In this document: piece after piece, positions 24,099 through 42,558 of the stretch
How the letters are laid out: each line of letters starts with the position of its first letter
Numbering within the stretch: position 1 is the stretch's first letter
Assembly: GCA_024762935.1 (NCBI GenBank)
Contig: JANTGK010000005.1
Span: forward strand, 1 to 55,337
Source of the DNA: Candidatus Peregrinibacteria bacterium
GTDB lineage: Bacteria; Patescibacteriota; Gracilibacteria; CAIRYL01; GCA-016699755
DNA: 55,337 nt
Reading direction: 5' to 3'
Translations under genes and position numbers: made by a program
Notes under the pieces: generated by a model
Database searches by the model: none
Told to the model about the DNA's origin: nothing
What the model saw: only the letters and a program-made list of their open reading frames with translations

Positions 24099-24602
24099 TT
24101 ATTCCTCACTCTCTTCTGAGTTGCACATTTTATATTCTCTTTTTTGACATTCCTTCTTTGTTTCACATATCTCCTCTATTGTTTTTTCTGAATCTGGAGG
24201 AGAGAAGTCTGGGGCAATCTGCAACATCGGCTGTAATACAAAGTTTCGCTGCTTCCAATATTTGTGCGGAATATGAAGTTTTTCTTCTGTAATACTGTCT
24301 TGATTCCAGAAGAGGATATCAATATCAATTTCTCGAGGTCCCCATTTTTTCCGACTTTTTCTGCCAAGTTTTTTTTCTATTTTTTGTGTTTTTTCAAGAA
24401 GTTCTTGTGGACTGAGGTCTGTGGATATTTTTATTACTGTATTCAAAAAAGTTGGTTGATCTATTTCACCCCATGGTTCTGAATTTATAAATTCTGAGAC
24501 ATCTTCAATAATGGCAATATCATCAATTTCTCCGATAGCATGGAGAATATTCTCTTCTCTGTTTCCGATGTTGCTGCCGAGTCCAAGGAAAATGTTATCC
24601 AT
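24099..24602 (-). CDS. folK: HPPK (dihydropteridine pyrophosphokinase)
   Basis: A 167-residue enzyme that pyrophosphorylates 6-hydroxymethyl-dihydropterin. GLGSNIGNREENI at the N-terminus and WGPREIDIDILFW (Mg/ATP-binding Asp pair) are diagnostic, as are EPWGEIDQPTFLN and HIPHKYWKQRNFVLQPM. The Cys/Glu-rich C-tail is extra. Its start overlaps the folP stop by eight bases, so the pair is translationally coupled. Confidence 0.93.
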   Translation of the reverse strand: MDNIFLGLGSNIGNREENILHAIGEIDDIAIIEDVSEFINSEPWGEIDQPTFLNTVIKISTDLSPQELLEKTQKIEKKLGRKSRKKWGPREIDIDILFWNQDSITEEKLHIPHKYWKQRNFVLQPMLQIAPDFSPPDSEKTIEEICETKKECQKREYKMCNSEESEE

Positions 24603-25401
24603 AATATGGGTCTGTAATCAGGAGTTGGTATGTTTTTAAGGCCTCATGCATTTCTTTTGTGTCGTGAACGCGAACTATGTCTGCACCATTTTGGGTAGCG
24701 ATAAGGCTTGATGCAATACTTGCAATAAGCCGATTTTTTGGATTCACGGGGTCAGACACTATTCCAAGAAAACCTTTTCGACTCGTACCGATGAGAATTT
24801 TATTGTCTGGAAATCGTTTTCTCAATCGACTGAGCTCTCGGAGAACTTTAAAGCTCACTTTTGGGTCAGAAGAAAGAAAGTTCCCCATACCTGGGTCTAG
24901 AATAATACGATTAGGATTGATTCCATTTTTTGTTGCAAATTCCAGTCGTTCTTCTAAAAAATCACCGATTTCTTGAATCGGGTCATCATATTCTTTTTTC
25001 TTCGCGGTTGTCCGTGCATTTGGGTCTTTTGAGTACATGATGACAATTTTACAGTCTGATTCTTGTAATGTGCGGATCATTTTGGGATCACCCCTAAAAG
25101 CCGTGACATCATTGATAATATGTACTCCTTTTTGAAGAGCTCTATGAGCAATTTCTGATTTCCAAGTATCAACTGAAATTGGTATTTGAAGATGGATTAC
25201 AGTACTGAGAACCAGTTCAAGTCTTCTCCACTCTTCATCCACGGGCACCTCTTTTGATCCGGGGCCACTACTTTCTGCTCCAATATCTAGAATATCTGCA
25301 CCATCTTGAACCATTTTTTCTGCTTGAATAAGTGCTTTTTTAGAATCTAGAAAATCACCCCCATCTGAGAATGAGTCAGGTGTGATATTGAGAATGCCCA
25401 T
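24595..25401 (-). CDS. folP: Dihydropteroate synthase
   Basis: A 268-residue TIM-barrel enzyme joining pterin pyrophosphate to p-aminobenzoate. MGILNITPDSFSDGG opens the protein, followed by DILDIGAESSGPGS, where the usual ESTRPG has become ESSGPG. Later come IINDVTAF, ILDPGMGNF and LIGTSRKGFLG. The start at this MGILN is a little shorter than many homologues; the same frame is open for about 12 more codons upstream without a canonical start. The altered ESTRPG loop is of note because that loop contacts pABA and sulfonamides. Confidence 0.93.
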   Translation of the reverse strand: MGILNITPDSFSDGGDFLDSKKALIQAEKMVQDGADILDIGAESSGPGSKEVPVDEEWRRLELVLSTVIHLQIPISVDTWKSEIAHRALQKGVHIINDVTAFRGDPKMIRTLQESDCKIVIMYSKDPNARTTAKKKEYDDPIQEIGDFLEERLEFATKNGINPNRIILDPGMGNFLSSDPKVSFKVLRELSRLRKRFPDNKILIGTSRKGFLGIVSDPVNPKNRLIASIASSLIATQNGADIVRVHDTKEMHEALKTYQLLITDPYYG

Positions 25402-25436: not shown

Positions 25437-28400
25437 TTATTTGTTTTGTTCCGAGTCTCTTTTCTGAAAGAATGAGAAGAAATCAAATGAATTATTTTGA
25501 AGGTACTCATCAAGCATATAAGAGAGGTCTTTATTGGTCGTATTATTGGAACACTTAAGACAATATTTCTTTCTCTGGGTTTTGTCTTTTAATATCTTTG
25601 GTGTCGTATCAAAGATATTGTTTACAAGCTTTACAACGGAATTGTCTCCTTTTCTTTTCTTTTTTCCTTCTGCACTTCTGAAAGTTATTTGTTTCTCATT
25701 ATTAATAAATAGATTTTCAGTAAATTCTCCCTTTCCGCCTTCAAAAAATGCCTTTTTATTATATGAGTTAATCGCTGTTTTATTCATGAGAAAAAGATTG
25801 TGGGATAATTCTGGATGAGAGCTATCTTTGACTTCTACGCCAATAAAACATTCTTGGAGAATATTATTGGTAATGGTGGGACTTGATCTTTCTCCAGTAC
25901 TAATACATTTGTCTCCTGATTGTTGAATAACATTATCCTTCACAAGGGTATCAGAGCCTGAGAAATCTATAGAATCATTTCCATTATGTATGAATGTGTT
26001 ATTACGGATTTCACCAGACATAAAATCAAAATCGATTGCATCTGCGCTATTATTCTGAAAAGTTGAATCTTCTATAATTGAATGTGTCGAGTACTTGATA
26101 TTTATGGCATCATCTCCTGTTGCATTCTCAAACTGACACTCTTGTATAAGTGCATCGGTATGATAGATCGAAAGCATTCCACTAAAAAAAGCACCATTTA
26201 TAGAGTCATCACTTCCATTTTGTATTTTTACATACGAAAAGACACTCTGCTTCTCTGTTTTTCCGAGTACGGCTACAACACCAAATGGTTCATCGGGATG
26301 ATTTGCAAGAATCTGAATGGGGTTTTCTTTTGTTCCTTTGGCTATAATCTGTCCATAAGACAGAATGGATATATTCTTTTTCATTTTTAGCGTTGTGCCT
26401 GGTTGAATCTTAAAAATAGAATTTTTTGGAAGAATAATCGTTTCAGCAATAGTGTGCTCACCGCTAGGGAGAGTCAAATACTCATCTTCTTTGTAAAAAA
26501 GCGGATGTTGCTTGAGGAATTCTTTTTCAGAGAGATTGATATCATTAATGTGGGCAAAAGTATCGGTGTAGACATTTATCTCTTGAGTTTCAAGTGGAAG
26601 ACGATTAACTTCTGTAAAAGGGGTGTTGTCAGGGGTACCGAGAACTTCCTCAAGGATATAGGAGGTTTCAACTACAGGTGATTCAAAAAGAAAGAGATAT
26701 CCAAATGGTACTTTTTGCTGTGTATCCCAATCATTCTCATCACTAAAACTATAGAGAGAATGAGAAATAAGTTTATTTTCTGAATTTGTTATTTTTCCAT
26801 TTTGGATGAATACTTTTTGGTCATCTGTATCTATAGAGAAGTTCTTATTTTGATCATAAAAAAGGTTATTTCCTGAGGGAATATCTATTGATGCTATTTT
26901 TATGTTGAAAATATTGTCAGGAAAAAATTCAAGACCAATAATCTCTTCCTTTGCGTTTCTATGTTTTATTACTGATATTTTATTATTGTAGAAATCTTCT
27001 ACAAATGTAAATTTTGTTTTTGAGAACGTAGTGTTCGTTACCGTTAGTTTTCCGTTTATATGAGAAATTGGTCCTCTTACATAGTGCTTCAGATTGTCAT
27101 TTTCCTTTTCAGATATAATAATTTTGGCATCTCCTCCATTAAAAATATGAAGATAATCAAGAATATTTTTTTTGTTATTCTCAGAAATGATGCTTATAGT
27201 GCCCCACGAATCTGTATTGGAATGTGCTTGAAAAGTGATTGGTTTTTCTTTTGTTCCTTGAGCGATAATATTTCCAAAAATAATAACTGATACACCTGGA
27301 TTGAGGAGCAACGTAACCCCTTTTTCGATGATAAGTGTCCTGTCTGAGGGTATTACAAGGTCTTTTTCTATTTGATAGGTACCTTTTGGAATCCGTAATG
27401 TATGTTCAGACTCTTTTACAAAGGAGAGTGTCCTGTATTCCCTTATGTGCTCTATGGGTGGAATTCCTTCTTCTTTAGAGAATTCTTCACTTCTTTTGAA
27501 AAGTACAAACAGTATGTCCTCAAGTGTAGTGAGAGCACCAAAATATTTTTGCCTTTTATTTTTATCTAACTCATTGAGATAGTGAGTGGTAAAACTATAC
27601 ATCATGTTTTCAAAGGTTTTGGCCTCAGTACCTTTATATTTTTTTATATACATATGTGTTTTTTCCCGTACCCCATTTATAAACCTGTCACTTTTTCCAA
27701 TTTTATAAAAGAGGAGCCTTTCTGTGGCACTGTCGAAGTTTGAGTTGTTATATCTTTTGACATCGGGAAACCATGGGGTAATATCCCAAGGGAAAAACAC
27801 AATTTTTCCCTGGCTGCTATCAAATATAAATTTCCAATTATGCAAGTTGTCAAAATGTTCACTAAATATATATCTATTGAGGGCATATATTTTTGTAAGA
27901 TTTTTTATATCTACTACTTTGCTTATTCTGTTATACATTTCATTTGGGGAAATCTCTTTGTTGTGAAGTAATTTTAAAAGCTCATATATTGGTGCATAAT
28001 CAGTGTATTTATGCTTTTCTGAAGATATTTTTACATCAAAGTAGGCAGGACTCTCAGTAAGAGATGCCATTTTTTCATCAGAATTATGCTTTACATTTTT
28101 TGGGGTATAGGCTCTTATGTCACCATCAAAGAAATCTGTTTCATCAGTAAAATTATTATTTGCTAAAAATGATTCATCATAATTTTCATTCACCCAGTAT
28201 AATAATGGTGATTCTCCATTGACTGATATGTATGCAATTTCATTTCTTGGACTCGGAAGGTTCATTTTTTTTGCGAGATCCATGAGAAACATTTCTAAAA
28301 AATATCCCTTATCACTCGGAATATTGAGCGATATTTTTTTATTATGAAAAAGAGGGTATTTATCTTTTTTAAATTTTATCATGTAACTCTTTTTTTTATA

Positions 28401-28754
28401 TCGCCAATGGTTACCCCAGTCTCCCTTGTACCGAACTCCAATTGAATACTTTTTGTTATCAATAATTATTTCTGCCGGTACATATTTTTTATGTTTTTCT
28501 TGGAGTATATACTCATCTTCTGCAGGTAAATTATCGTTTAGTTTTTTAAGATTTTTCTCTGAAATAAGAAGGGTGTATGTTGGAATGCTTACATCATTAT
28601 ACTGTCCTACTAGTGAGACATAGTGTTTTTGATAGTATAAATAGCTCAATGGAACAATAAGTACTATGCTCCCAAAAATAAGAAACGTTAAAAACCTTTT
28701 TTTGGTTATTTTTTTTTGTAGTATTTTTTGAATTTTCTGTGCAAATGGGGTCAT
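25437..28754 (-). CDS. CotH-kinase protein fused to right-handed beta-helix
   Basis: A 1105-residue protein: cytosolic basic N-terminus, one signal-anchor helix (about 20-40), then a CotH kinase-like domain (about 50-420). It shows GVRYKGDWGNHWRYKKKSYMI (106-126) and the ATP/metal-site region with EHFDNLHNWKF (299-309) and FFPWDITPWF (320-329). From about residue 460 to 1080 come two segments of the form G-T-L-x-L-x-P-G-x-x-I-x-x-x-G-x-I-x-A-x-G-T-K-E-x-P-I, then a long run of parallel beta-helix rungs (ADAIDFDFMSGEIRNNTFI and similar). CotH proteins are secreted atypical kinases. It is divergent from the VTC and DUF4956 genes, which often accompany CotH. Confidence 0.88.
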   Translation of the reverse strand: MTPFAQKIQKILQKKITKKRFLTFLIFGSIVLIVPLSYLYYQKHYVSLVGQYNDVSIPTYTLLISEKNLKKLNDNLPAEDEYILQEKHKKYVPAEIIIDNKKYSIGVRYKGDWGNHWRYKKKSYMIKFKKDKYPLFHNKKISLNIPSDKGYFLEMFLMDLAKKMNLPSPRNEIAYISVNGESPLLYWVNENYDESFLANNNFTDETDFFDGDIRAYTPKNVKHNSDEKMASLTESPAYFDVKISSEKHKYTDYAPIYELLKLLHNKEISPNEMYNRISKVVDIKNLTKIYALNRYIFSEHFDNLHNWKFIFDSSQGKIVFFPWDITPWFPDVKRYNNSNFDSATERLLFYKIGKSDRFINGVREKTHMYIKKYKGTEAKTFENMMYSFTTHYLNELDKNKRQKYFGALTTLEDILFVLFKRSEEFSKEEGIPPIEHIREYRTLSFVKESEHTLRIPKGTYQIEKDLVIPSDRTLIIEKGVTLLLNPGVSVIIFGNIIAQGTKEKPITFQAHSNTDSWGTISIISENNKKNILDYLHIFNGGDAKIIISEKENDNLKHYVRGPISHINGKLTVTNTTFSKTKFTFVEDFYNNKISVIKHRNAKEEIIGLEFFPDNIFNIKIASIDIPSGNNLFYDQNKNFSIDTDDQKVFIQNGKITNSENKLISHSLYSFSDENDWDTQQKVPFGYLFLFESPVVETSYILEEVLGTPDNTPFTEVNRLPLETQEINVYTDTFAHINDINLSEKEFLKQHPLFYKEDEYLTLPSGEHTIAETIILPKNSIFKIQPGTTLKMKKNISILSYGQIIAKGTKENPIQILANHPDEPFGVVAVLGKTEKQSVFSYVKIQNGSDDSINGAFFSGMLSIYHTDALIQECQFENATGDDAINIKYSTHSIIEDSTFQNNSADAIDFDFMSGEIRNNTFIHNGNDSIDFSGSDTLVKDNVIQQSGDKCISTGERSSPTITNNILQECFIGVEVKDSSHPELSHNLFLMNKTAINSYNKKAFFEGGKGEFTENLFINNEKQITFRSAEGKKKRKGDNSVVKLVNNIFDTTPKILKDKTQRKKYCLKCSNNTTNKDLSYMLDEYLQNNSFDFFSFFQKRDSEQNK

Positions 28755-28788
28755 CTCAAAAGAAGGTTATAAAATAAATACTCTTTAC

Positions 28789-28807
28789 AGATTTCTCCTA
28801 GAAATCT
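28789..28807. promoter_or_regulatory. Palindrome between the CotH and VTC genes
   Basis: AGATTTCT-CCT-AGAAATCT is a perfect 8-bp inverted repeat with a 3-base centre, in the 139-base divergent intergenic region and upstream of both genes. It could be an operator for both transcription units. A terminator is less likely because neither neighbour transcribes toward it. Confidence 0.45.
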
Positions 28808-28845
28808 TTTAGTAGGATTATACAGAAGAAAAAAGAATTTTTCGA

Positions 28846-28874
28846 TTGATATTCATCGAAAGAAATTGTAAAAT
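28846..28874 (+). promoter_or_regulatory. Promoter of the VTC-DUF4956 operon
   Basis: TTGATA (28846-28851), a 17-base spacer and TAAAAT (28869-28874). The predicted start near 28881 leaves a leader of about 13 bases to the ATG at 28894. Confidence 0.6.
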
Positions 28875-28893
28875 GATGAGATAACACATACAC

Positions 28894-29649
28894 ATGAATA
28901 TCTCTCTCCCGATCGGTGTTGCTGCATCAGAAGAAGCAATAAAACTTCAATTCAGACGTTTTGAATTTAAATATATTCTTCAGAAAGATTTGGCTGACTG
29001 TCTTATTCCTCAGCTCCTGAAATATATGGCTCTCGATGAATATGCAAATGATGAAGAATACTATGAGGTACATTCTCTCTATTTTGATACACCTCGACTG
29101 AAGAATTATTATGAGAAGATTCATGGGGTTTTAAATCGTAAAAAGCCCCGTATTCGCCTATATCATAAAGAATTGGAGAAAAATACAAATGTATTTTTTG
29201 AGATAAAGAGAAGAAGTGGAGAAATCATATTGAAGGATAGGGCCATTACTTCAGTTGAAGATTTACAAAACTTTCCAAATAATCCCTGTTTCCTTTTGCA
29301 GGATGACCAAAGGGATCAGGCCTTTTTTAATGAATTTATTTTTGATCATTATCATTTAGGGATGATGCCCATGGTTCTTGTTTCTTATAAGCGGAAACCT
29401 TTTTTTTCAAAATTTACACGAAATTTTCGCGTGACCTTCGACTATGACATGCATGCAGCAAAACCAAAGGGGATTGATTTTATGGCAGATTATATAAGTT
29501 TCTCTCCAGAGAAAGTTATTATGGAAGTAAAATTTAACGGAAAGATGCCTCTTTGGTTCTCCGAAATCATTGAAATGTACGGACTAGAGAAGGTTTCTTT
29601 CTCAAAATATTGTGGTGCTATTCAATGCTGTTATAATCTTTCTGAATAA
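28894..29649 (+). CDS. VTC-domain (polyphosphate polymerase-like) protein
   Basis: A 251-residue VTC domain protein, the triphosphate-tunnel fold of yeast Vtc4. RRFEFKYILQ opens the domain, YYEVHSLYFDTPRLKNYYEK holds the conserved Y-F-D-T, RKKPRIRLYHKE and FFEIKRRSG carry the tunnel basic residues with the E-x-K, VLVSYKRKPF holds a conserved Arg, and VIMEVKFNGKMP provides the metal-binding Glu-Lys. It has no SPX or membrane domain, so polyphosphate synthesis is possible but unproven. It lies 18 bases before the DUF4956 gene and shares a divergent control region with CotH. Confidence 0.9.
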   Translation: MNISLPIGVAASEEAIKLQFRRFEFKYILQKDLADCLIPQLLKYMALDEYANDEEYYEVHSLYFDTPRLKNYYEKIHGVLNRKKPRIRLYHKELEKNTNVFFEIKRRSGEIILKDRAITSVEDLQNFPNNPCFLLQDDQRDQAFFNEFIFDHYHLGMMPMVLVSYKRKPFFSKFTRNFRVTFDYDMHAAKPKGIDFMADYISFSPEKVIMEVKFNGKMPLWFSEIIEMYGLEKVSFSKYCGAIQCCYNLSE

Positions 29650-29667
29650 TTCTTTTTTAAACCAAGG

Positions 29668-30354
29668 ATGGATGATATTTTTAAAAAAAAGGCGATAGAG
29701 AAACTTGTCGGTGATCCGGTAACGCTTTTGCTTTTACTCGGTGTTGCATTTGGACTCGGGCTTATTATTGCGTACACCTATAAAAAAACACATAAGGGAT
29801 TTTCATATTCTCAAAATTTCTTCACCACTATCGTTTTATTAACAGTCATCACCACGTTTATTGTTATTTTTATCGGAGACAACATGGCTCGAGCTATTGG
29901 AATTTTTGGAGCCTTTTCTATTATTCGATTTCGTACAGCAGTGAAAGATACACGAGATACTATTTTCCTTTTCTTTTCTCTTGGGGTCGGACTTGCTATC
30001 GGGAGCAGTAGTGTTGCTCTTGGCATAGTAGGGACACTCATTATTTCTCTGATAATATTCTTACTTTATTTTGCAAATCCAGGAGGTACTTCAAAAACAC
30101 ATTTTGTCCTAACATTCCAAGTCGATACTGAAAAATATTCAACAGAACTCTTTGAATCAGTCTTTCAACAATATTTAAAGAACAAAACACTCTTAAATGT
30201 ACAAGGTGGGTATAAAGGAAAAAAATTAACACTTTCATTTAATATTACACTTAAAAATATTGAAAGAATCGATGATCTTGTTCGTGATATGGAACAAATA
30301 AAAGGGATTTCAGATATTCATTTTGTAAATTCAAAGAATGATCTTGAATTTTAA
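29668..30354 (+). CDS. DUF4956 membrane protein
   Basis: A 228-residue protein with four N-terminal helices (about 17-135) and a ~75-residue cytosolic C-terminal domain with an ACT/ferredoxin-like look (FVLTFQVDTEKY...LSFNITLKN...GISDIHFVN). The loop AIGIFGAFSIIRFRTAVKDT is the DUF4956 signature. The family is of unknown function and typically sits next to VTC and CotH genes; a channel or scaffold for the VTC reaction is a reasonable guess. It converges with the minus-strand glycan cluster with ten bases between stops. Confidence 0.88.
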   Translation: MDDIFKKKAIEKLVGDPVTLLLLLGVAFGLGLIIAYTYKKTHKGFSYSQNFFTTIVLLTVITTFIVIFIGDNMARAIGIFGAFSIIRFRTAVKDTRDTIFLFFSLGVGLAIGSSSVALGIVGTLIISLIIFLLYFANPGGTSKTHFVLTFQVDTEKYSTELFESVFQQYLKNKTLLNVQGGYKGKKLTLSFNITLKNIERIDDLVRDMEQIKGISDIHFVNSKNDLEF

Positions 30355-32033: not shown

Positions 32034-32960
32034 CTATGATTTCCTTGAGATATTCTTTAGAAGAATGATTTTACTTAGTGGCCCAGCAATAAATAATACA
32101 AGAATGTTTACTGCTCGTATTATAACAGAAGCAGAAAGTACATTTTCAATAGAAATACCAATAGATCGGGAAGAGAGAATGTAGAATGTCTCAGTAATTC
32201 CGATGGAATCGGGAGTGATATTTAGGAAAACAGCCAATGTAGAAGTTGTGTACATATAGCCTGCATTGATGAGCAAAACAGAAGGCATGATGACTGATAG
32301 TGCGACAAAGAGAATGAGTATTCCAAGACCAATGTTAATACCTGTTAGGATGCAAAGAACCATAATGAGTTTATGATTCAATCGAATAAGATTCCAACCG
32401 TGAGCAATCTGTCCGAGTCCTCTTGATATGGAGTTTTTTTGAGAAAACTGAGAATTTGGCATGAGAATAAAATATATTCCCAATAGAAAAACAAGGAAAA
32501 AGAGTATGACGAAAGAAAGAGAGATGATAGACGAGGATCGAAAAAAGGAAAAGAACAACACAAAAAATATAATCGATGACATCAGAAAAACAATCACGTA
32601 ATTTCCGAAGAGACTTGCTGCGTAGTCTGCATATTTGAGATTATATCTTTTTTTCATGTACCACGCACGAAAACCAGCACCTCCTCGAAAAGGAGTAATA
32701 AGATTTAAAAATGATGCTGAAAACGAGAGGAGTATAAAGTCAAAAATGTGTGTATGAGCTATAAAAGGACGGGAAAGTTGTTGTAAAACGAGTCCGTTAC
32801 AAAAGAGAGATGAGAGAATGAGAAAGGTGAGAAGGAGGATTACCTGAGGTGATACGTTTTTAATATTTTGTAGAATATCTTGGTGAAAATATAAGAAAAC
32901 ACCAGCAGAACCAACAACGAGAATTGTCAGGAAAATTCCAATAATATTTTTTATTTTCAT
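32034..32960 (-). CDS. UPF0104/AglD-like (lysylphosphatidylglycerol synthase TM family) protein
   Basis: The likely start is the ATG at 32960 (MKIKNIIGIFLTILVVG), which overlaps the stop of the GT2 gene as TAATG, giving 308 residues and 8-9 helices. Segments FLNLITPFRGGAGFRAWYMKK and YAASLFGNYVIVFL match the UPF0104 core; GITETFYILSS is near the end. Such proteins resemble the flippase domain of MprF and AglD/GtrB partners, and may move lipid-linked sugars. Coupled to the GT2 gene, it suggests a joint role in lipid-carrier glycosylation. Confidence 0.82.
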   Translation of the reverse strand: MKIKNIIGIFLTILVVGSAGVFLYFHQDILQNIKNVSPQVILLLTFLILSSLFCNGLVLQQLSRPFIAHTHIFDFILLSFSASFLNLITPFRGGAGFRAWYMKKRYNLKYADYAASLFGNYVIVFLMSSIIFFVLFFSFFRSSSIISLSFVILFFLVFLLGIYFILMPNSQFSQKNSISRGLGQIAHGWNLIRLNHKLIMVLCILTGINIGLGILILFVALSVIMPSVLLINAGYMYTTSTLAVFLNITPDSIGITETFYILSSRSIGISIENVLSASVIIRAVNILVLFIAGPLSKIILLKNISRKS

Positions 32961-33934
32961 TATTTTTTTGAGAAACGACTGTGGATATACATCCCTCGTA
33001 GAATACCTGCATAAAAAGAGAGAGCTACAACAGGGAGTATAAGAAAGACACATATCATTTTCTTGCTGATTCCGGCAATCCACACTGTGAGAGCAGTCCA
33101 AAAGAGAAAAATCCCTATTGCTATTTTTATACTCTCATTTCGATAGAGAAGTATAAGAGTAAAAAGGGAGGTAAAAATGAGAAATGGCAGTACAATAATT
33201 TTCCAAAAATTTTTTTGTCGAACATCTCCATAATAATCCCAAAATTTTGCACCTCTTAAAAAGAGATGGTGAATAATAGCTTTTAGTTTTGTCCGAGAGT
33301 AGGTAACAACCTTTACTTTTGGAGAGAGGAGGATGTCTGTAAATGTGACGATTGTTTTTAGAAATTTTGTATCATCAGAAGAATCATGGGAGAACTCTGT
33401 AGTAGAAAGATGTAAATAGGCTTTTTTAAGAATAGCCTTTGAAACATAGAAAACCCCTGTTCCTTTAGGGAGTTCATCAAAATTTTTTTTTGAAAGCATC
33501 ATTTCTTTTCCAAAATTTTGATAAAATCGAGGAAATATCTTTTTTAAAATCAAATTATGAAAGGTCTCGTATGCATTTTCATTTTTTCGAGAAAGGCATA
33601 ATCCGATGGCTGCATTTGAAGTAATTTTATTTAATTCTAAAAAAATATCATTTTTGACAGTGAGCCGTGCATCCAAGAAGAGGATATCTGAATATTTTGC
33701 GTGCTCAAATCCTGTTTTTCTGGACGCAAATCTTCCAAGATTTTTGGAATGAGAAATAATCCTTACATTTGTGAATCGTTGTGCATTTTTTTTTGTATTA
33801 TCCGTTGATCCATCATCTACAACTATTATATCCAGATGATCTTGAGGATACTTTGTATCTTGTATGCTCGTCAAAAGTCGGCATAGAGATGATTCTTCGT
33901 TGAATGTAGGAATTATTATTGAGATCTTTTTCAT
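32960..33934 (-). CDS. Glycosyltransferase family 2 with C-terminal helices
   Basis: A 324-residue GT-A enzyme. KISIIIPTFNEESSLCRLL and IIVVDDGSTDNTKKNA form the nucleotide site, FLDARLTVKND stands where the D-x-D usually lies (here D-A-R), and two or three membrane helices (about 232-310) follow. It probably transfers a sugar to a membrane-bound acceptor. Translationally coupled to the UPF0104 gene. The metal motif D-A-R is unusual. Confidence 0.85.
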   Translation of the reverse strand: MKKISIIIPTFNEESSLCRLLTSIQDTKYPQDHLDIIVVDDGSTDNTKKNAQRFTNVRIISHSKNLGRFASRKTGFEHAKYSDILFLDARLTVKNDIFLELNKITSNAAIGLCLSRKNENAYETFHNLILKKIFPRFYQNFGKEMMLSKKNFDELPKGTGVFYVSKAILKKAYLHLSTTEFSHDSSDDTKFLKTIVTFTDILLSPKVKVVTYSRTKLKAIIHHLFLRGAKFWDYYGDVRQKNFWKIIVLPFLIFTSLFTLILLYRNESIKIAIGIFLFWTALTVWIAGISKKMICVFLILPVVALSFYAGILRGMYIHSRFSKK

Positions 33935-34007
33935 TATTTTTATTTTATATTATTTCTTTTATATATGTGAGGAGAAAATACAGAAAGCGCTTACAGATAA
34001 TTCATGA

Positions 34008-35099
34008 TTAATTTTTTGGGAGATTTTTTCCTTGCACAAGAAAAGGTTCTTTATCGAGTCCGCGAATCCAATAGTATTCGGTATCTATTTTTTCTACAGC
34101 TTCAATACATTTTCCATTTTGGAAATAATCAAGAACGGCTTGAGGAGTATTAACATCAATATTGGCGAAAAAATTACTCGTCGTAAAGAATCGGCCATAA
34201 TTCACTTCCATAGGAATAACCTTATTTTGGGAATTTCGTTTGAGGTCCACACAATATATTCCGTGTGGTTTGGGATCTATTGTCATAATTGAGTCATAGG
34301 TACCCCGATAGACATCTTTTTCATCAACTGTTTTTGCTACTGCTGGAGTAGAACTTTGCCCAGATGGCATGAGGTTTCCAAAGAAATAGACGACTCGTTC
34401 TCGGGCTTGAGACTGAACGACTTTTCCATCTATCCAGAGAGTTTGTACTGCATATTCTGTGCCATCAAGATATTCTGAGATCATGAAGTCATCTTCTTGA
34501 AGACCCTTCATTTCTACCCAGTATTGTACCCAGTGCAATGCTTGTTCATATGTTTTTACCGGAAGTGCTGCACGAGATCCAGCTCCACGAATGGCACGAA
34601 CCCATACCTTTCCACTTGGCTTTAAAATTCTCCTGAATAGTTTTCTTTCTGTTTTGATAGCTGAAAACGGATATGAGAGAAAGCCCAAATGCAGTTTTTT
34701 GTTCCATTCTTGCTGACAGTAGAGTTTATTCGCAAACTTTTCCCACATATCTAAAGAGTGATTAAAGATATATTTTTTAAATACATCCTTATGTTTGAGG
34801 AGAAATTGTACTTCAGAATCAGGCTGGGCATGAAGGTAGTCAATGTTTTCAGCTTGGAGAATATCTAGTATTTTTAAAACCTTCTCATCTTCATTATCAT
34901 ATTTTAGGAGTATTTTTTTATCACTATTGCAGGAGGCAAGGTTATATTTATCGAGATCACATCCGACCACATATATATATTTTGCTCCGAGCCTGAGGGA
35001 TTTTATGAAATTTATTCCCGCATTTCCACCAGCACCAAGAAGAAGGACATTTGTCATATATGAATGATATATCTCTTTGAGAGTATCAGATGTACTCAT
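34008..35099 (-). CDS. ATP-grasp enzyme (carbamoyl-phosphate-synthase-like)
   Basis: A 363-residue protein: N-terminal Rossmann-like pre-ATP-grasp domain (TNVLLLGAGGNAGINFIKSL, GCDLDKYNLA) and ATP-grasp core with KPSGKVWVRAIRGAGSRAAL (lysine and glycine-rich loop), MISEYLDGTEYAV and CVDLKRNSQNKVIPMEVNYG (metal ligands). Such stand-alone enzymes ligate a carboxylate to an amine or thiol. In a glycan cluster it might decorate a sugar with an amino acid. ATG at 35057 (MTNVLLLGAGG) is an alternative, more family-like start. Confidence 0.8.
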   Translation of the reverse strand: MSTSDTLKEIYHSYMTNVLLLGAGGNAGINFIKSLRLGAKYIYVVGCDLDKYNLASCNSDKKILLKYDNEDEKVLKILDILQAENIDYLHAQPDSEVQFLLKHKDVFKKYIFNHSLDMWEKFANKLYCQQEWNKKLHLGFLSYPFSAIKTERKLFRRILKPSGKVWVRAIRGAGSRAALPVKTYEQALHWVQYWVEMKGLQEDDFMISEYLDGTEYAVQTLWIDGKVVQSQARERVVYFFGNLMPSGQSSTPAVAKTVDEKDVYRGTYDSIMTIDPKPHGIYCVDLKRNSQNKVIPMEVNYGRFFTTSNFFANIDVNTPQAVLDYFQNGKCIEAVEKIDTEYYWIRGLDKEPFLVQGKNLPKN

Positions 35100-35148
35100 G
35101 AAAATATAGAGATGGTCGTATTATATTGTGTATATCAAAATGTATTTT

Positions 35149-36192
35149 TTATTTTTTGAGAAATGCAAAAATTTCTGCTCCATATTCTTTGTTTTTTCCA
35201 ATAATTCCCAGTTGTTCAGCCGTGTTGTTAAGAGAGGAAATCCGGTCACTGAATATTTTCATTTCACTATTTGAACTTATTTTAAAGCTCGTTGTTCCGA
35301 ATGACGAAATGGTAAATGCATTTTTTTTGCAGAATTGACGTATGAATGTGAAAAAACTCTCGTATGTATAGTATCGCTTATGTCCAACGGCAAAATCATG
35401 TTCTTGAAGCTGTGTTAAATCCTGCAATATTCCCATGTTTTTTCCAAAATACCGATGAAAACTATTCGCATTTGGAACAGTCATATATACACTGCGTGCG
35501 TCTTTTACTTGTTCCATAAAAGCCCTGTCATCTTCAATATGTTCTAAGACTCCGAGAATAGTCACAGAGTCATATTTTTTTATGTCTACTTCTTCTATTT
35601 TGTTATAGAAATTTCTATATATATTTTTTGCCCGTGCTTTCTTCATCAGATTCTTATCAGGTTCAACAAGGTCGATGGTTGTACTATTTATATCAAGTCC
35701 ATCCCATACATCACCATCTCCACCACCAATATCAAGAATAACTTTATTTTGGATATCTAGATATTTTATTTTTTCTTTTCGAAGCAATTTTTCATGATTA
35801 CTTTCTGGCTGTTGAGATGATATGACACCCTCTTGGTGACAAAGTCGTTCTTGAATCCATTTTTTGGTTTCGGTCCAGTTTTCAAATCGAAATCCTTTAT
35901 CATCTATATAGAGATCCACCCGAGGTTTTGTATAAAAGAGAATGTAATCAAAACTGATTTCATTTTTTTTCATCTGCTGCTCTAGGTATTTTCGGTGATA
36001 ATCTGGACGGCAGGTGAAAATAAGGATTTCAAACCCTTTTTTCTTTAGCCACTTAGTGGATTCCGACGCTTGAGATTTTACACTCAGGTCGACCTTATCT
36101 TGAAATGTTTGGTCAATGCTGCTTGTATCTTCAAAAAGTGTTCCATCAAAATCTATAGCAACCCGTTTATGTCGAAAGTGAATTGGAGGCAT
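35149..36192 (-). CDS. HAD-like hydrolase fused to SAM methyltransferase
   Basis: A 347-residue two-domain protein. Residues 1-~115 are a compact HAD-like domain without cap: motif I AIDFDGTLFED (D14, D16), a motif-II-like LIFTCRPDYH and motif IV DLYIDDKGFRFENW. Residues ~140-345 are a class I methyltransferase: ILDIGGGDGDVWDGL (SAM loop), LVEPDKNLMKKA, and TILGVLEHIEDDRAFMEQ (UbiE/DUF268-like post-I motif). Fusion of a sugar-phosphatase-like and methyl-transfer module in one chain is unusual. It lies between the ATP-grasp and Gfo/Idh genes, suggesting modification of the same sugar. Confidence 0.85.
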   Translation of the reverse strand: MPPIHFRHKRVAIDFDGTLFEDTSSIDQTFQDKVDLSVKSQASESTKWLKKKGFEILIFTCRPDYHRKYLEQQMKKNEISFDYILFYTKPRVDLYIDDKGFRFENWTETKKWIQERLCHQEGVISSQQPESNHEKLLRKEKIKYLDIQNKVILDIGGGDGDVWDGLDINSTTIDLVEPDKNLMKKARAKNIYRNFYNKIEEVDIKKYDSVTILGVLEHIEDDRAFMEQVKDARSVYMTVPNANSFHRYFGKNMGILQDLTQLQEHDFAVGHKRYYTYESFFTFIRQFCKKNAFTISSFGTTSFKISSNSEMKIFSDRISSLNNTAEQLGIIGKNKEYGAEIFAFLKK

Positions 36193-36225
36193 GGTATTTG
36201 AGAGAAAGATATTTCTTTGTGGTTT

Positions 36226-37206
36226 CTAAGATTCACTATTTTTAGTAGTAGCTATGCGCAGTGCTTCCACTGAAAATGATGGGTCAATGGGCTTATTTTC
36301 TAATAAAGCGTGCATAAAATATTCGATTTCCTCTCGAAGAGGTTCTTTTTTTGCAACAGATATTGTTACCTTATCTGGCTCAGAAAAGCGTAAAATGTAA
36401 TCAGAAAAAGTATTTGAGCTTTCTTTGAATTTTTCATAATTACTCTCATAAAATTCAATTTTTTGATTAATATAATCCATTTCTAAATATCCTTCTGTGC
36501 CAGTGATATTTAATTTTCTGATTTTTACAGGTGTAATCCAGTTGGCTTGGATATATGCAGAGGCCTTGGAGTACTTCAAGAAAAATTCAACCGCATCTTC
36601 CCGTTTTTCAATATGATTTTTTTGCTTATTGCAATACACCTCTTTTGGTTGTTCCTCGAGGAGGTAGTTTATGATATCAATATCATGAATAGCGAGGTCA
36701 ACGGCGATATTTGCATCTTTAATCTGTGGTGGAAAGCCACCAACACGTCGAGCTATTATAGCCGTTACTTTTCCAAGGCTGCCTTTGTTAATCATGTCCT
36801 TGACCCTTCTCACAGCTGGGTTAAAGCGTTCTATGTGTCCCACAAAGAGATGTGTTTTTTTTGCTTTTGCAAGTTCTATGAGAGCTATTCCTTCTTCGGG
36901 GGTCATAGCAATTGGTTTTTCAAGAAGGCAATGGATTTTTTTATTCAAAAAGTAACGTGTTACCTCTGTATGAAGTTTTGTTGGAACACATATAGAAACA
37001 ACATCTGGTTTTTGATCTGTGTAGAGTTCTTCTGAAGTCTCGTACGTTGGTAAATCGGGATATTTTTTGGAAATATTATCTCGTTGTTTCTTGCTCGGAT
37101 CTACGATTCCACACAGCTGAATATCTTTCAGGAGATCAAGGGTACGAACATGATTACCCCCCATATTTCCCGTTCCAATGACAGCCCATTTAAGTTTTTT
37201 TTGCAT
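36226..37206 (-). CDS. Gfo/Idh/MocA-family NAD-dependent sugar dehydrogenase
   Basis: About 326 residues from MQKKLKWAVIGTGNMGGNHV (ATG at 37206; another ATG six bases earlier). The Rossmann G-x-G-x-x-G lies at the start, VSICVPTKLH follows and the conserved E-K-P is in CLLEKPIAMTPEEG; HDIDIINYLL carries the catalytic-region H-D. In glycan clusters this family oxidises UDP-amino sugars (for example WlbA at C3) to give a keto sugar for a DegT aminotransferase, and the next gene upstream, overlapping by 17 bases, is exactly that. Confidence 0.88.
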   Translation of the reverse strand: MQKKLKWAVIGTGNMGGNHVRTLDLLKDIQLCGIVDPSKKQRDNISKKYPDLPTYETSEELYTDQKPDVVSICVPTKLHTEVTRYFLNKKIHCLLEKPIAMTPEEGIALIELAKAKKTHLFVGHIERFNPAVRRVKDMINKGSLGKVTAIIARRVGGFPPQIKDANIAVDLAIHDIDIINYLLEEQPKEVYCNKQKNHIEKREDAVEFFLKYSKASAYIQANWITPVKIRKLNITGTEGYLEMDYINQKIEFYESNYEKFKESSNTFSDYILRFSEPDKVTISVAKKEPLREEIEYFMHALLENKPIDPSFSVEALRIATTKNSES

Positions 37207-38296
37207 ATGCATGTAAGACAGAAATAATATGTTCCAATTCTTCTTTGGTAAGGTATGGATGAACAGGGAGGCTTATAACTTGAGTAGAGATTCTTTCAGA
37301 TATCGGATAATCATTTTTTTTATACCCCATATTTTGAAAATGAGGATGAAGATGAAGGGGTTTTGGATAGTATTTGCCCGCTCCGATATTATTTTCCCTG
37401 AGGTATTGAAATAAATCATCTCGTTTTACTTTTTTGTTGTCACATTTAATGGTGTATTGGTGATAGACATGTTTTTTGTACTCAGGATGTGAAGGAGGGG
37501 TTATGCCTTCAATATTTTTTATTCCTTGGGTAAGAGTTTTTGCATTTTGAATTCGTTTGTTTGTGAGCATATCTAACTTTTTCAACTGTGCGAGGGCTAT
37601 GGCGGATTGCAAATCTGTTATTCGGTAATTGTACCCGATATCATGGTATTCATATCGAGTCTGCTGACTTTGACCATGATGACGAAATCTTCGGCATTGC
37701 TCAGCATAAAGATCATTACTCGTTGTTATCATTCCTCCTTCTCCGCACATCATATTTTTTGTGGCATAGAACGAAAAGCACCCCATATCTCCATGGGATC
37801 CTGACATGGTATTTTTATATTGAGCAGCATGAGACTGGGCGGCATCCTGAATTATTGTAAGTCCATATTTTTCAGAAATTTTTTTGAGCTGAGTATAGTC
37901 TGCTGGTTGTCCGTAAAGATCTACTGCAATTATAGCCTTGGTTTTTTTGGTGATCTTTTTTTCAACTTCTTTTGGGTCAATGTTAAATGTTGATTCATCA
38001 ATATCAGCAAATATTACTTTTCCATTCTGCATGACGATTGGATTTGCCGTGGCTACAAATGTAAAAGGAGTAGTGATGACTTCATCATCATTTCTTATTC
38101 CAGCAGCGTAAAGTGCAGCATGAAGTGCAGCAGTACCGGAGCTGACAGCAATAGCATGTTTTGTGCCACAATATTCAGCAAAAAGTTCTTCTAATTCTTG
38201 TGTTTTTTTCCCTTGAGCTAACATTCCACTTTCTACGACTTCGAGAAGATTTTTAATTTCAGCTTTATCGAGAGATACCTTGGTGATTGGAATCAT
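37190..38296 (-). CDS. DegT/DnrJ/EryC1 sugar aminotransferase
   Basis: A 368-residue PLP enzyme. AVSSGTAALHAALYAAGI, DEVITTPFTFVATANPI, AVDLYGQPADY and the lysine-bearing FSFYATKNMMCGEGGMI (Schiff base Lys in ATKN) are diagnostic. It transfers an amino group to a keto nucleotide sugar. It overlaps the dehydrogenase gene, so the two likely act in sequence to make an amino sugar. Confidence 0.93.
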   Translation of the reverse strand: MIPITKVSLDKAEIKNLLEVVESGMLAQGKKTQELEELFAEYCGTKHAIAVSSGTAALHAALYAAGIRNDDEVITTPFTFVATANPIVMQNGKVIFADIDESTFNIDPKEVEKKITKKTKAIIAVDLYGQPADYTQLKKISEKYGLTIIQDAAQSHAAQYKNTMSGSHGDMGCFSFYATKNMMCGEGGMITTSNDLYAEQCRRFRHHGQSQQTRYEYHDIGYNYRITDLQSAIALAQLKKLDMLTNKRIQNAKTLTQGIKNIEGITPPSHPEYKKHVYHQYTIKCDNKKVKRDDLFQYLRENNIGAGKYYPKPLHLHPHFQNMGYKKNDYPISERISTQVISLPVHPYLTKEELEHIISVLHAYAKKT

Positions 38297-38353
38297 TGAA
38301 CAAGAAAATCCTCTCCATTGTAGTATGAGTACCTAAAAAAAGACCACCTCTTT

Positions 38354-39442
38354 TTACTTTTCGATAATAGTATCGAGAATAATCTCAGTAGGAGAATGTT
38401 CGGGTCGAAATGGGGGACGTTTGTAGAGATCAATGTTTTGAATAAACTTCTTCATTACTGCTGGATCGTGTTTTGAAAGAAGAGAAGATGAACCAATTCC
38501 ATCCTTATATTCAGCTACATCTCTCATAATAAGACATGGTTTTCCCATAAGCCATGCTTCTGTTTGAATGCTTCCCCCGTCAGAAATGACGCATTGTGAT
38601 GAATGCATAAGGGCGATAAAATCAAAGTAATCATAGCGAGGCCTCATCTCAATATTTTGGTTTTTTTCCAGAAGATGCATGAGGTTGTATTTTATAAGAT
38701 GCTCTTTTGTTGGTGCATGAAGGACGAAGAGAATTTTTATATGTGATGATGCAAAGACTATTTGTTCAATGATTTTTCGAAATTTCTCTTTGTGGACGAT
38801 ATTTTCAAAGCGATGAATCATACACAGGGCATATTTTTCCTTTGGTATTTTTACAGTTGAGTTATGGATATTTTTTAGTGCTATATCGAGGCAATCTGAA
38901 ACGGTATTGTATTTTGTATTAATGACAGTAGCAGAATACCCCTTTAGGTTTTCTTCATCACGATCATTTGGTGCAAAACAAATGTAAGAGAGTTTATCGG
39001 TTACAGTTCGACAAATCTCTTCTGGAAATGGGCTTAACAGGTTGTGTGACCTTCCACCTGCTTCAACATGCACTATTTTGATTCCCGCAACTTTCCCCAT
39101 TATAGCTCCAAGAAGAGTGGAGACAGTATCTCCGTGTACAATGACAATATCGTTCTTCTGAATATGAGAACCAAAGATCTCTTTTTTATGTACGAGTACT
39201 TTCCATATAACTTTTATAATCCATCCCGCCATTTGGAATATTCGCGTGATATCTTTTCCTGTATAGAGGGTGACATTTGGTTTTTTTATACCAAAGTTTT
39301 TTCTGAGATCTTCTACTGTATTTTGGTGCTGTCCCGTAAAAATAAATCGATAAGAAATATTTTTTTGTTGGAGTGCACTCATGATTGGAGAAAGCTTTAT
39401 GAGTTCAGCTTTTGTCCCCAGTATGATAAATATTTGCCTCAT
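38354..39442 (-). CDS. UDP-GlcNAc 2-epimerase-like enzyme
   Basis: A 362-residue GT-B fold epimerase. GTKAELIKLSPIM at the start, FTGQHQNTV, VHGDTVSTLLGA, HVEAGGRSHNLLSPFPEEICR (the canonical sequence is EAGLRT) and SDGGSIQTEAWLMGKPCLIMR (canonical DSGGIQEEA) mark the family, with the catalytic-region changes L to G and T to S worth noting. The usual product is UDP-ManNAc or a similarly epimerised sugar. Its start overlaps the GT2 gene by 38 bases. Confidence 0.85.
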   Translation of the reverse strand: MRQIFIILGTKAELIKLSPIMSALQQKNISYRFIFTGQHQNTVEDLRKNFGIKKPNVTLYTGKDITRIFQMAGWIIKVIWKVLVHKKEIFGSHIQKNDIVIVHGDTVSTLLGAIMGKVAGIKIVHVEAGGRSHNLLSPFPEEICRTVTDKLSYICFAPNDRDEENLKGYSATVINTKYNTVSDCLDIALKNIHNSTVKIPKEKYALCMIHRFENIVHKEKFRKIIEQIVFASSHIKILFVLHAPTKEHLIKYNLMHLLEKNQNIEMRPRYDYFDFIALMHSSQCVISDGGSIQTEAWLMGKPCLIMRDVAEYKDGIGSSSLLSKHDPAVMKKFIQNIDLYKRPPFRPEHSPTEIILDTIIEK

Positions 39443-40385
39443 ATTCCTGTTTTCTTAAAAGATAGAGTATTTTTTCTTGGTTGATTCGTGACCTATCTAG
39501 CATATCGGCAATGAGTCCGAGAATAAAGATTAATATACCGAAGAAATTTAATGTGGCTCCAAGGAGACCAAAAGTAGAAAATCTTCCAAAATTTCCATGA
39601 ATGAAGACATATCCGAAGATAAAGAGATCAATAAAAAATCCTATTTGAAATACTAAGAATCCAATAGTCCCAAAAAATTGCAAAGGTTTATGATCCCTGT
39701 AGAATTTTATGATAATCAGGAAGGAGCGAAGGGTAAATTGAAAAAGATTTCCTGCAACTCTTGACTCTCTATCCTTATAGTATCGTACGGAAATAGGAAT
39801 CTGTTTCAGTCGAAATTTTTTATAACAGAGGTCGAGAAGTGTTTCCTGAGTACTGACAAATTCTCCAATAACATTGAGATGGAGAAGTACTTCTCGGGAG
39901 AATGCTCGAAAACCACAAGCAGCATCTTCAATTGTTTGTTTTGCGATAAGAGAAATGAGCTTACTCATCATTTTGTTTCCAAGATATTTGGTAGCAGACA
40001 TGTATTTTTCCTTTTTTGAACCAGAAAAAAAGCGATTTCCAGAAGTGAAATCTGCTTTCCTGTGAATAATCGGCTGAATAAGATCTTTTATCTGGTTACT
40101 ATTAAACTGATTATCGGCATCAATCATTACGAGTATGTCGCCTTTGTTTTTTAGTGTCCATTCAACAGCAGAATGAAATGCTGCTCCTTCTCCCAGGTTA
40201 ATAGAATGAGATACGACTATTGCACCTGCTTTTTTGGCAATTTCTGAAGTATTATCTGTTGATCCATCATCAATAACAACAACATCATATTTATCAATAC
40301 CATCAAATTTTTTTGGAAGATCACGAAGTGTTTTTAATATTCGTTTTTCTTCATTAAGTGCCGGTATTCCAATAACAAGTTTCAT
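39405..40385 (-). CDS. DPM1/GtrB-like glycosyltransferase (GT2)
   Basis: A 326-residue enzyme. KLVIGIPALNEEKRILKTL, VVVIDDGSTDNTSEIA and MIDADNQFNSNQ (D-x-D region) form the GT-A site; EDAACGFRAFSRE is typical of the DPM1 subgroup. Two C-terminal helices (about 225-300) anchor it. It probably loads a sugar onto polyprenyl phosphate, with the GtrA gene downstream supplying flippase function. Its TGA stop is one of two in the window, and it overlaps the epimerase gene by 38 bases. Confidence 0.9.
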   Translation of the reverse strand: MKLVIGIPALNEEKRILKTLRDLPKKFDGIDKYDVVVIDDGSTDNTSEIAKKAGAIVVSHSINLGEGAAFHSAVEWTLKNKGDILVMIDADNQFNSNQIKDLIQPIIHRKADFTSGNRFFSGSKKEKYMSATKYLGNKMMSKLISLIAKQTIEDAACGFRAFSREVLLHLNVIGEFVSTQETLLDLCYKKFRLKQIPISVRYYKDRESRVAGNLFQFTLRSFLIIIKFYRDHKPLQFFGTIGFLVFQIGFFIDLFIFGYVFIHGNFGRFSTFGLLGATLNFFGILIFILGLIADMLDRSRINQEKILYLLRKQEYEANIYHTGDKS

Positions 40386-40479
40386 GTTTATTTTTTTATC
40401 TTCCTATTTTCTCAAAATTGCTCTATAAAAACAATATATTGACATTGTGAAAATAAATAAATATATCAAAAAATATCTT

Positions 40480-40899
40480 TTATCGAAAAACAAAATACTT
40501 TCGGGCGAGAAAGTTCCAGAACACTACAACAAGGGAAAGAAGTTTTGCAACTATGATAGAGAGGCCCATGTGTTCATGAAAGAGCCACATAAGAATCATG
40601 GTCATGATCAGTCCGACAATGCCGATGAAAACAAAAGTAGAAATATCTCTAAAATGCTGCACCTTTGAAATACTTTTCATTTCCCGTGAAAAAACCCAAA
40701 GATTACTGAGAAGATAGTTAATGGTGACTCCGATACAAAAACCAAATACCGTTGCGATAAGATAATGAAACTGAAACCCAGTAGAGAACAAAACAACAAA
40801 AAAAGTATCTCCGATTGCAGCTGCCCCTCCCACAAAAAAATAGCGAAAAAATTGAAGACTACTATTATTCGTTTTTTGTATGATAAGCGTTTTAATCAT
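40480..40899 (-). CDS. GtrA-family flippase-like protein
   Basis: A 139-residue protein with four helices, the GtrA size and layout. FFRYFFVGGAAAIGDTFFVV and GVTINYLLSNLWVFSR are family signatures. GtrA proteins help move polyprenyl-linked sugars across the membrane, or act as accessory proteins to GT2 enzymes such as the neighbouring GtrB-like gene. It lies nine bases after the FAD oxidoreductase gene. Confidence 0.9.
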   Translation of the reverse strand: MIKTLIIQKTNNSSLQFFRYFFVGGAAAIGDTFFVVLFSTGFQFHYLIATVFGFCIGVTINYLLSNLWVFSREMKSISKVQHFRDISTFVFIGIVGLIMTMILMWLFHEHMGLSIIVAKLLSLVVVFWNFLARKYFVFR

Positions 40900-40908
40900 T
40901 GTATAGCA

Positions 40909-42486
40909 TTATGCAGGTTTGACCTGAGGAGATCTTTTTGGTTTTTGAATGACATCTGATTGCTCCCCCTGATTCTCTTCGTGATATTCTGTTTCAGTAT
41001 TAATGGACCAGATATTTTCTTTGCCAAAGATGCCAAATCGAATATTTCGGACTGCACGAATGGCTGAGAGCATGGAGTGATCTTGATTATTGTATTTATG
41101 CATTCCGTTCCTTCCAATACAAAAAAGATTTGAAATATCATTCAAATATTCTTTTACGACTTCGATGTGATTGTAACTGCCAAAATATGCAGGGTATGCC
41201 TTTGGGGTTTTAATAACAACGGCATCTAAAATATCTTTCTCGTGAATGATTCCAATATGTTCGAGTTCTTTCGCTCCAAAGGTTTTCATTTCAGAATCTG
41301 ACTTTTCCCATATTTCATCTCCCTCATTGCAGAAATACTCTAATCCAATCCAGGTTGTATTGGGGTCTTTTACAAGGTATGGACTCCAATTATTAAAAAT
41401 TTGAAGTCGACCTACTTTTACATCTGGTTCTTGAATATAAATCCAATTATCTTTAATTTTTCCCCCATCAGTATTTTTTATGGCAAGTTTCTTTACGAGA
41501 AGTCCGACAGTTAAAAAATCTCTGTATTGTAGTGATGTGCCAATTTTTTTCACTTTTTTTGGCATTTTTCCCCGCCAGTTTTCACAGAGATCTTTTATGG
41601 GCATAGTGGAAAAAAAATAATCTGCATGGAGGGATGTCCTCAAATGTGATTTTGTATTTTCTGCTGTGATTTTTTTAATATTTCCGGTTTGTTTGCACTG
41701 AAAAATTTCTGATGCTTTTGTGTTGATTCGTATCTCTCCGCCTTTTGTCTTTACCATTTGTGCAACCTCTTCCCACATTTGCCCCGGTCCATATTTTGGG
41801 TAGAGGAATTTACTGATGAGACTTGTCTCCACATTTTTTTGGCGGAGATCTTTTGTTGTTTTTGGGATGAGATTACTCAGTGCATGTTTCAAGACCTTTG
41901 TGATGGATATTCCCTTGATCCGTTGAGCTCCCCATTCGGGTTTAATTTTGTCACATGTTTTTCCCCAAACTTTTTCTGTGTAATCTCGAAAAAATGTCTG
42001 ATAGAGTTCTTTTCCAAATCGGTTAATAAAAAAGTCTTCAAGAGATTTTTCTTTTTGAATAGGAAAGAGTTTAATCCTCAGATAGCTAAATGACATTTTT
42101 ATCATGCGGATTATTCCAAGGTTTATAATGGTATTTTTACTAAGAGTAATGGGGTAATCAAAAAACTTCCGAAGAAAAAAGATTCGTGAAAGTCTGTTCC
42201 GAATGAGCATTTTTTTTCTTGCCTTCTGTACTGGTTTTTCAAGACTCTCAACAGGAAGAATATTCTGCCACCATTCCATCACCACGTCTGATTTTGAAAA
42301 AAAACGGTGTCCACCGATATCAATGCGATTTCCTTTATAATTTACAGTACGTGAAATACCTCCAATCTCACTACTCATTTCTAATATAATAGGTTTTATA
42401 TCTGTTTTTGTAACAAGTTCATAAGCAGCAGTGAGTCCTGCAGGACCTGCGCCAATAATAATTGCTGTTTTTTGTTTTTCTTTCAT
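40909..42486 (-). CDS. FAD-dependent amine-oxidase-fold oxidoreductase
   Basis: A 525-residue flavoprotein. The dinucleotide-binding [15 protein letters not shown] at the N-terminus, [13 protein letters not shown] and [14 protein letters not shown] are typical of the COG1232/UDP-galactopyranose mutase-like group found in O-antigen clusters; [19 protein letters not shown] near the C-terminus closes the FAD site. A sugar- or polyprenyl-modifying redox role is likely. The ~30-residue C-terminal tail is polar and extra. Confidence 0.85.
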
Positions 42487-42558
42487 CTCCGTTATATTTT
42501 CCGGGAATTATACCAAAAGATACCTCTTTTTCCTAGGGAAAAAGGTGAGATGAACTAT

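Follow-up and report, generated by a model that had tools for sequence, protein, structure and literature searches.

A conserved VTC, DUF4956 and CotH gene module in a Candidatus Peregrinibacteria genome, with polyphosphate export as a possible function

What keeps the genes for a VTC-domain protein, a DUF4956 membrane protein and a CotH kinase-like protein together? The question is raised by a 55,337-nucleotide stretch of Candidatus Peregrinibacteria DNA (contig JANTGK010000005.1 of assembly GCA_024762935.1, here called the window), which is contig C5 of a 1.38 Mb genome that is 96% complete. The three genes lie side by side in it, and a first-pass annotation of the window located them correctly and regarded them as a joint system. 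They form a conserved module with a linkage that extends over many phyla. With about even confidence we read this module as one in which VTC polymerises polyphosphate, DUF4956 exports it at the inner membrane and CotH acts outside.

25437 to 28754, minus strand: CotH kinase-like protein, 1105 amino acids (Pfam)
28894 to 29649, plus strand: VTC-domain protein, 251 amino acids (PF09359, 5.5e-41)
29668 to 30354, plus strand: DUF4956 protein, 228 amino acids (PF16316, 3.3e-14)

The VTC and DUF4956 genes, both on the plus strand, are 18 bases apart. Their closest relatives are found in Candidatus Peregrinibacteria assemblies at 50-54% identity.

The co-occurrence of the three families, which the earlier annotation proposed to survey, holds in distant genomes. 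Across 145 Patescibacteria, the window's own phylum, VTC was found in 12 genomes and DUF4956 in 12, with both in 11, and all of the 10 genomes with CotH also have DUF4956. The families occur almost exclusively together in these genomes (Fisher 1.4e-14, 8e-14 and 3.6e-11, values that ignore shared ancestry). Public genomes were scanned with the DUF4956 motif because the VTC alignment was too divergent for this purpose. The scan gave 80 loci in eight phyla: Patescibacteria, Bacteroidota with Ignavibacteria, Neomarinimicrobiota, KSB1, Zixibacteria, Planctomycetota, Chloroflexota and Bacillota. They include a few near-duplicates (L032/L033, L060/L062) and are biased towards DUF4956 proteins like that of the window because DUF4956 was the query, and the bias is partly offset by an independent set of 99 Bacteroidota genomes. 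VTC is present in 18 of these and DUF4956 in all 18, and 18 of 20 fetched Bacteroidota VTC genes directly adjoin DUF4956.

Of 63 located pairs of VTC and DUF4956, 62 consist of direct neighbours and all 63 are encoded on the same strand. CotH is optional, being present at 51 of the 80 DUF4956 loci; it is at most two open reading frames away in 46 and has the same direction as the pair in every one of them. The local CotH profile might over-label, so its calls were checked with Pfam, which confirmed 49 of the 52 scanned proteins, including that of the window. In Patescibacteria, sugar genes usually surround the module.

Two side observations concern the gene pair elsewhere. A Cthe_2159-like carbohydrate-binding protein is encoded beside DUF4956-VTC in L020:7281-8717, with no CotH adjacent, and has a homologue in L018:3-944. 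VTC-like genes were also seen in the unannotated human faecal 'phage' records MT835527.1 (L144:4968-6396), MT838813.1 and MT836222.1, directly followed by a DUF4956 gene in the first; they may be bacterial contamination.

The first-pass annotation saw in the trio the window's strongest candidate for an undescribed system, and this does not stand. In 2020, cotH, PPP (VTC), DUF4956 and DUF4832 genes were described beside Gram-positive pel clusters (PMC7112168), and mutants followed in 2025 in Streptococcus intermedius, where the same three families are adjacent pel accessory genes: SIR_1592 (DUF4956-like), SIR_1593 (VTC) and SIR_1594 (CotH). Deletion of the DUF4956-like gene raised the amount of Pel, deletion of the CotH gene lowered it, and both reduced aggregation (PMC12345266). 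The pel accessory DUF4956 has MgtC-like helices and an ACT domain like that of the window, whereas the CotH proteins differ: the window's carries a beta-helix and is divergently encoded, and the pel-linked ones carry fibronectin domains. The authors of the 2025 study found the trio at Pel loci only. This does not hold in the present data, where PelG (PF16933) is above its cut-off in none of 48 module-bearing genomes, that is, the window's own, in which it has no match, and 47 others; by this measure the module is not linked to pelDEADAFG. A search of the open-access literature, with subscription papers and preprints outside its range, found no report that joins DUF4956 or VTC with a periplasmic adaptor or with polyphosphate export. 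The grouping is known; what appears to be new is that it occurs independently of Pel and, as described below, in connection with an adaptor of TolC type.

The VTC protein has the domain in full length, with a match that spans positions 2-234 of the 235 in the PF09359 model. A search of the PDB with the single sequence gave chance-level matches only, but a profile of 11 Patescibacteria VTC proteins matched the yeast Vtc4 structures at 3.6e-23. In this alignment K26, R86, R88, K105, K114 and R167 correspond to K200, R264, R266, K281, K294 and R361 of Vtc4, and R179, E211, K213, S237 and K238 to R373, E426, K428, S457 and K458. All 11 positions, which we take to be the active-site and tunnel residues that matter in Vtc4, are invariant across 11 divergent homologues. 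The first-pass annotation had named two findings that would refute its reading, a lack of co-occurrence in distant genomes and a VTC domain without the catalytic lysine and arginine residues of the tunnel; neither is the case. The VTC protein of the window is probably a polyphosphate polymerase and would make polyphosphate in the cell. Because PPK1 and PPK2 have no match in the genome, VTC is also the sole candidate for a polyphosphate synthase among the families searched. The earlier suggestion that VTC makes polyphosphate and that DUF4956 is its membrane partner is supported as probable by the co-occurrence and the active-site residues.

The DUF4956 protein scores 53.4 bits against PF16316, above the curated cut-off of 30.6. 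Its score of 18.4 bits against MgtC (PF02308) is below the cut-off of 31.4, and the likeness to that family is in layout only. An AlphaFold2 model (predicted local distance difference test score, pLDDT, 76.8; predicted template modelling score, pTM, 0.53) contains some five membrane helices, and its C-terminal domain resembles ACT. R87 and R89 of an RFR motif are invariant. When the model was compared with Foldseek, the ACT-like C-terminus was the sole part with matches, all weak (E > 0.007) and including the C-terminal domain of MgtC (2LQJ). DUF4956 is probably an inner-membrane export unit; that it transports, and in which direction, we infer.

The genes beside the module in other genomes bear on this role. 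One family of about 350-380 amino acids occurs beside VTC in 37 of the 80 loci; in 34 of these 37 it is encoded immediately upstream of whichever of VTC and DUF4956 comes first. Its members are periplasmic adaptors like HlyD, MacA and AcrA. The Pfam domain HlyD_D23 was found in 16 of 31 proteins, the family profile matches ZneB, MacA, EmrA and AcrA, and the best Foldseek match of an AlphaFold2 model (pLDDT 89.4) is MacA at 3.7e-14. The pattern R-x3-L-x6-S at the tip of such adaptors serves for docking to TolC, and here the arginine is found in 31 of 31 proteins, the leucine in 29 and the serine in 21. Of 38 loci from outer-membrane phyla, 35 have the adaptor, and none of the 38 loci from Patescibacteria, Bacillota and Chloroflexota has it, a contrast that is not corrected for shared ancestry.

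In some loci the row of genes goes further. An outer-membrane efflux protein (OEP, TolC family) follows DUF4956 in L065, which has the order adaptor-VTC-DUF4956-OEP. In L123:1458-8347 the genes for CotH, DUF4956, HlyD, OEP, VTC and an LTD-domain protein form one co-directional row. Eight Bacteroidota loci (L135-L137 and L139-L143) have the order DUF6580-DUF4956-HlyD-OEP-SDR, with an adaptor of a second kind and an OEP-like protein; no VTC and no recognised pump were found in this operon, which is possibly a tripartite exporter based on DUF4956 with another substrate. From these neighbours it follows that DUF4956 would stand in place of the inner-membrane pump of tripartite systems. With MacAB-TolC and EmrAB-TolC the outer-membrane relatives of the module have in common an adaptor like MacA or EmrA and, in some cases, a channel like TolC, but they have DUF4956 where those systems have an ABC, RND or MFS pump. 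The window's own module has no periplasmic adaptor and, with no OEP match in its genome, does not make up a tripartite exporter.

The CotH protein has its kinase-like domain (PF08757) at amino acids 107-368 (3.8e-20; 73.1 bits against a cut-off of 23.8) and a hydrophobic N-terminal segment that reads as a membrane anchor. A right-handed beta-helix at amino acids 883-1023 (Pfam Beta_helix, 7e-16) was not mentioned in the first-pass annotation. The protein matches the Bacillus spore-coat kinase CotH (5JD9) at 1.2e-06, and by alignment columns D302 and D324 fall on the FDG and PWD motifs of that structure, presumably the catalytic and the metal-binding aspartate. The kinase-like domain and the aspartate pair are common to both proteins, but the window's CotH has in addition the membrane anchor and the beta-helix, and has no link to spores. 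In its nearest relatives, the Peregrinibacteria loci L032 and L033, CotH, VTC and DUF4956 lie in one direction. The CotH region has no Pfam match there and glutamate replaces the second aspartate, whereas the beta-helix is 44-45% identical to that of the window. The CotH domain thus looks degenerate in these two relatives and is still joined to a conserved beta-helix, which by sequence comparison is better conserved in this lineage than the kinase-like part.

How the parts could work together can be proposed as follows. The soluble VTC protein at the inner face of the membrane would polymerise inorganic polyphosphate from ATP. DUF4956, with its RFR-motif helices and ACT-like domain, would take over the chain and move it through the membrane, in the way that the VTC complex of eukaryotes fills vacuoles, and VTC and DUF4956 together would form the central part of a system that both makes and exports a polymer. 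Where an outer membrane is present, the MacA/AcrA-like adaptor and a TolC-like channel would extend the route through the remaining envelope; Patescibacteria and Bacillota have a single membrane and would need neither. CotH, anchored in the membrane and facing outwards, might modify the exported product, surface polymers or perhaps a glycan made by neighbouring genes, and its beta-helix probably holds glycan. We infer this role of CotH from its place in the module. The eukaryotic VTC complex (Vtc4 with Vtc1 and Vtc2/Vtc3) has the same catalytic domain and active-site residues and likewise pairs the polymerase with a membrane protein; the window's VTC differs in being free-standing, without an SPX domain, and in having a membrane partner from another family. 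Export is a plausible proposal. It is possible, with somewhat less than even confidence, that the module represents a so far unrecognised kind of exporter: a soluble polymerase would make the polyphosphate chain, this synthesis would push the chain through a small MgtC-like protein in the membrane, and a TolC-type adaptor and channel would lengthen the path in outer-membrane bacteria, often in company with an outward-facing CotH that modifies the cell surface.

Besides the uncorrected distribution of the adaptor, several points weigh against this proposal. TolC genes are rarely linked to the module, and among the 20 VTC-DUF4956 loci of the Bacteroidota set there are 6 with neither adaptor nor CotH. 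The membrane part of DUF4956 has no confident structural match in Foldseek, and PDB searches with the single sequence (chance matches only) and with the profile (nothing) found no solved relative. MgtC, its nearest named relative, is described as an ATP-synthase inhibitor and not as a transporter (PMC12345266). No effect on aggregation was reported when the VTC gene SIR_1593 of S. intermedius was deleted, whereas deletions of DUF4956 and CotH changed it (PMC12345266); the trio therefore does not act like one obligatory pathway in that species.

Instead, the module could regulate surface polysaccharide, with CotH phosphorylating envelope proteins, DUF4956 sensing a metabolite or controlling the balance of ATP and phosphate, and polyphosphate kept inside as a store or signal. 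The sugar-gene islands around the module in Patescibacteria fit this, as do the ACT-like domain of DUF4956, the altered amounts of Pel in the DUF4956 and CotH mutants of S. intermedius and the regulation by phosphorylation that was proposed in 2020 (PMC7112168). It is nevertheless unlikely in our judgement, as the module is mostly pel-free and as an adaptor limited to outer-membrane phyla and DUF4956-adaptor-TolC operons without VTC or CotH are left unexplained. A VTC-like enzyme with the triphosphate-tunnel fold might also make or cleave another product, the exported substance then being a phosphorylated metabolite or glycan precursor. The low sequence identity to Vtc4 and the operons without VTC, which suggest more than one product for DUF4956, would allow for this. 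However, all checked active-site positions are invariant and the profile matches Vtc4 strongly, which makes another product very unlikely.

The model of the first-pass annotation also let CotH draw on the polyphosphate outside the cell as phosphate donor and thereby phosphorylate or cross-link surface proteins. In its favour, ATP is not to be expected there, the linkage of CotH is conserved and co-directional, and the aspartate pair is aligned in the window's protein. But roughly one locus in three has no CotH, the CotH domain looks degenerate in the nearest relatives, characterised CotH uses ATP, and no gene for a substrate was identified, so that this fuller model seems quite improbable.

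Related gene groups are known from other bacteria. In Clostridium perfringens NELoc-2 (CP4_0460 to CP4_0465, PMC2879425), VTC lies beside CotH and 222-226 amino acid 'tubulin/FtsZ' proteins, which by size and place are probably DUF4956; unlike the window, NELoc-2 has two VTC copies around a resolvase and other neighbours. Two further candidates were dropped as parallels: the paper on Streptomyces cmdABCDEF gives no sign of CotH or VTC, and for the Zetaproteobacteria sfz stalk cluster CotH (Sfz6) is described and VTC or DUF4956 is not mentioned.

The window's genome holds more members of these families, which the first-pass annotation overlooked. A second VTC and DUF4956 pair lies near a contig end (G000:C17:22450-23708, in L015), in the reversed order DUF4956-VTC and with a canonical Pfam-type DUF4956, and a second CotH gene lies near the end of another contig (G000:C3:58911-59897, in L028). 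Joining the two contigs into a second complete module was considered and dropped, the end sequences having no overlap.

The divergent arrangement of CotH and VTC in the window leaves a shared region of exactly 139 bases between them, as annotated before.

28755 to 28893: intergenic region between the divergent CotH and VTC genes, 139 bases, 74% A+T
28789 to 28807: inverted repeat AGATTTCT-CCT-AGAAATCT, within chance expectation
28846 to 28874, plus strand: promoter-like site for VTC, TTGATA-17-TAAAAT, consensus match only
28817 to 28845, minus strand (read 28845-28817): promoter-like site for CotH, TCGAAA-17-TATAAT, consensus match only

The repeat had been described as a perfect palindrome. 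Its two 8-base arms are indeed perfect, but the CCT spacer is not palindromic, 7.9% of the random sequences that a first-order Markov model makes from these 139 bases have at least one such arm pair (spacer of at most 10), and 30 repeats of this kind occur across the window. Likewise, a consensus-like site exists where a clear VTC promoter had been seen, but the stretch has 10 promoter-like sites against 7.2 +/- 3.0 expected from shuffles; being near chance frequency, such sites are no proof on their own. A structured leader RNA of CotH was dropped as a candidate because the fold is unremarkable (z = -0.68). The divergent promoter and palindrome were also rejected as features of the system: none of the 46 other nearby CotH genes is divergent, so the layout is a local inversion or relocation of CotH that lies outside the system. 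The folate genes HPPK and Pterin_bind (window 24099-25401) come directly after CotH on the same strand. On the other side a glycan island (window 32034-44493) encodes a flippase-like LPG_synthase_TM protein, GT2 enzymes, a DegT aminotransferase, a UDP-GlcNAc 2-epimerase and GtrA.

The three families have hitherto been unexplained additions to the Pel biofilm locus. The data presented here separate the module from Pel, spread it across many phyla and offer a testable mechanism, the export of a phosphate polymer. If this is true, bacteria would have in VTC and DUF4956 an equivalent of the eukaryotic VTC complex, and DUF4956 would have a function. A secretion route devoted to polyphosphate would then exist in bacteria; it would account for the extracellular polyphosphate in some of them and might provide a source of phosphate for outward-facing kinases such as CotH.

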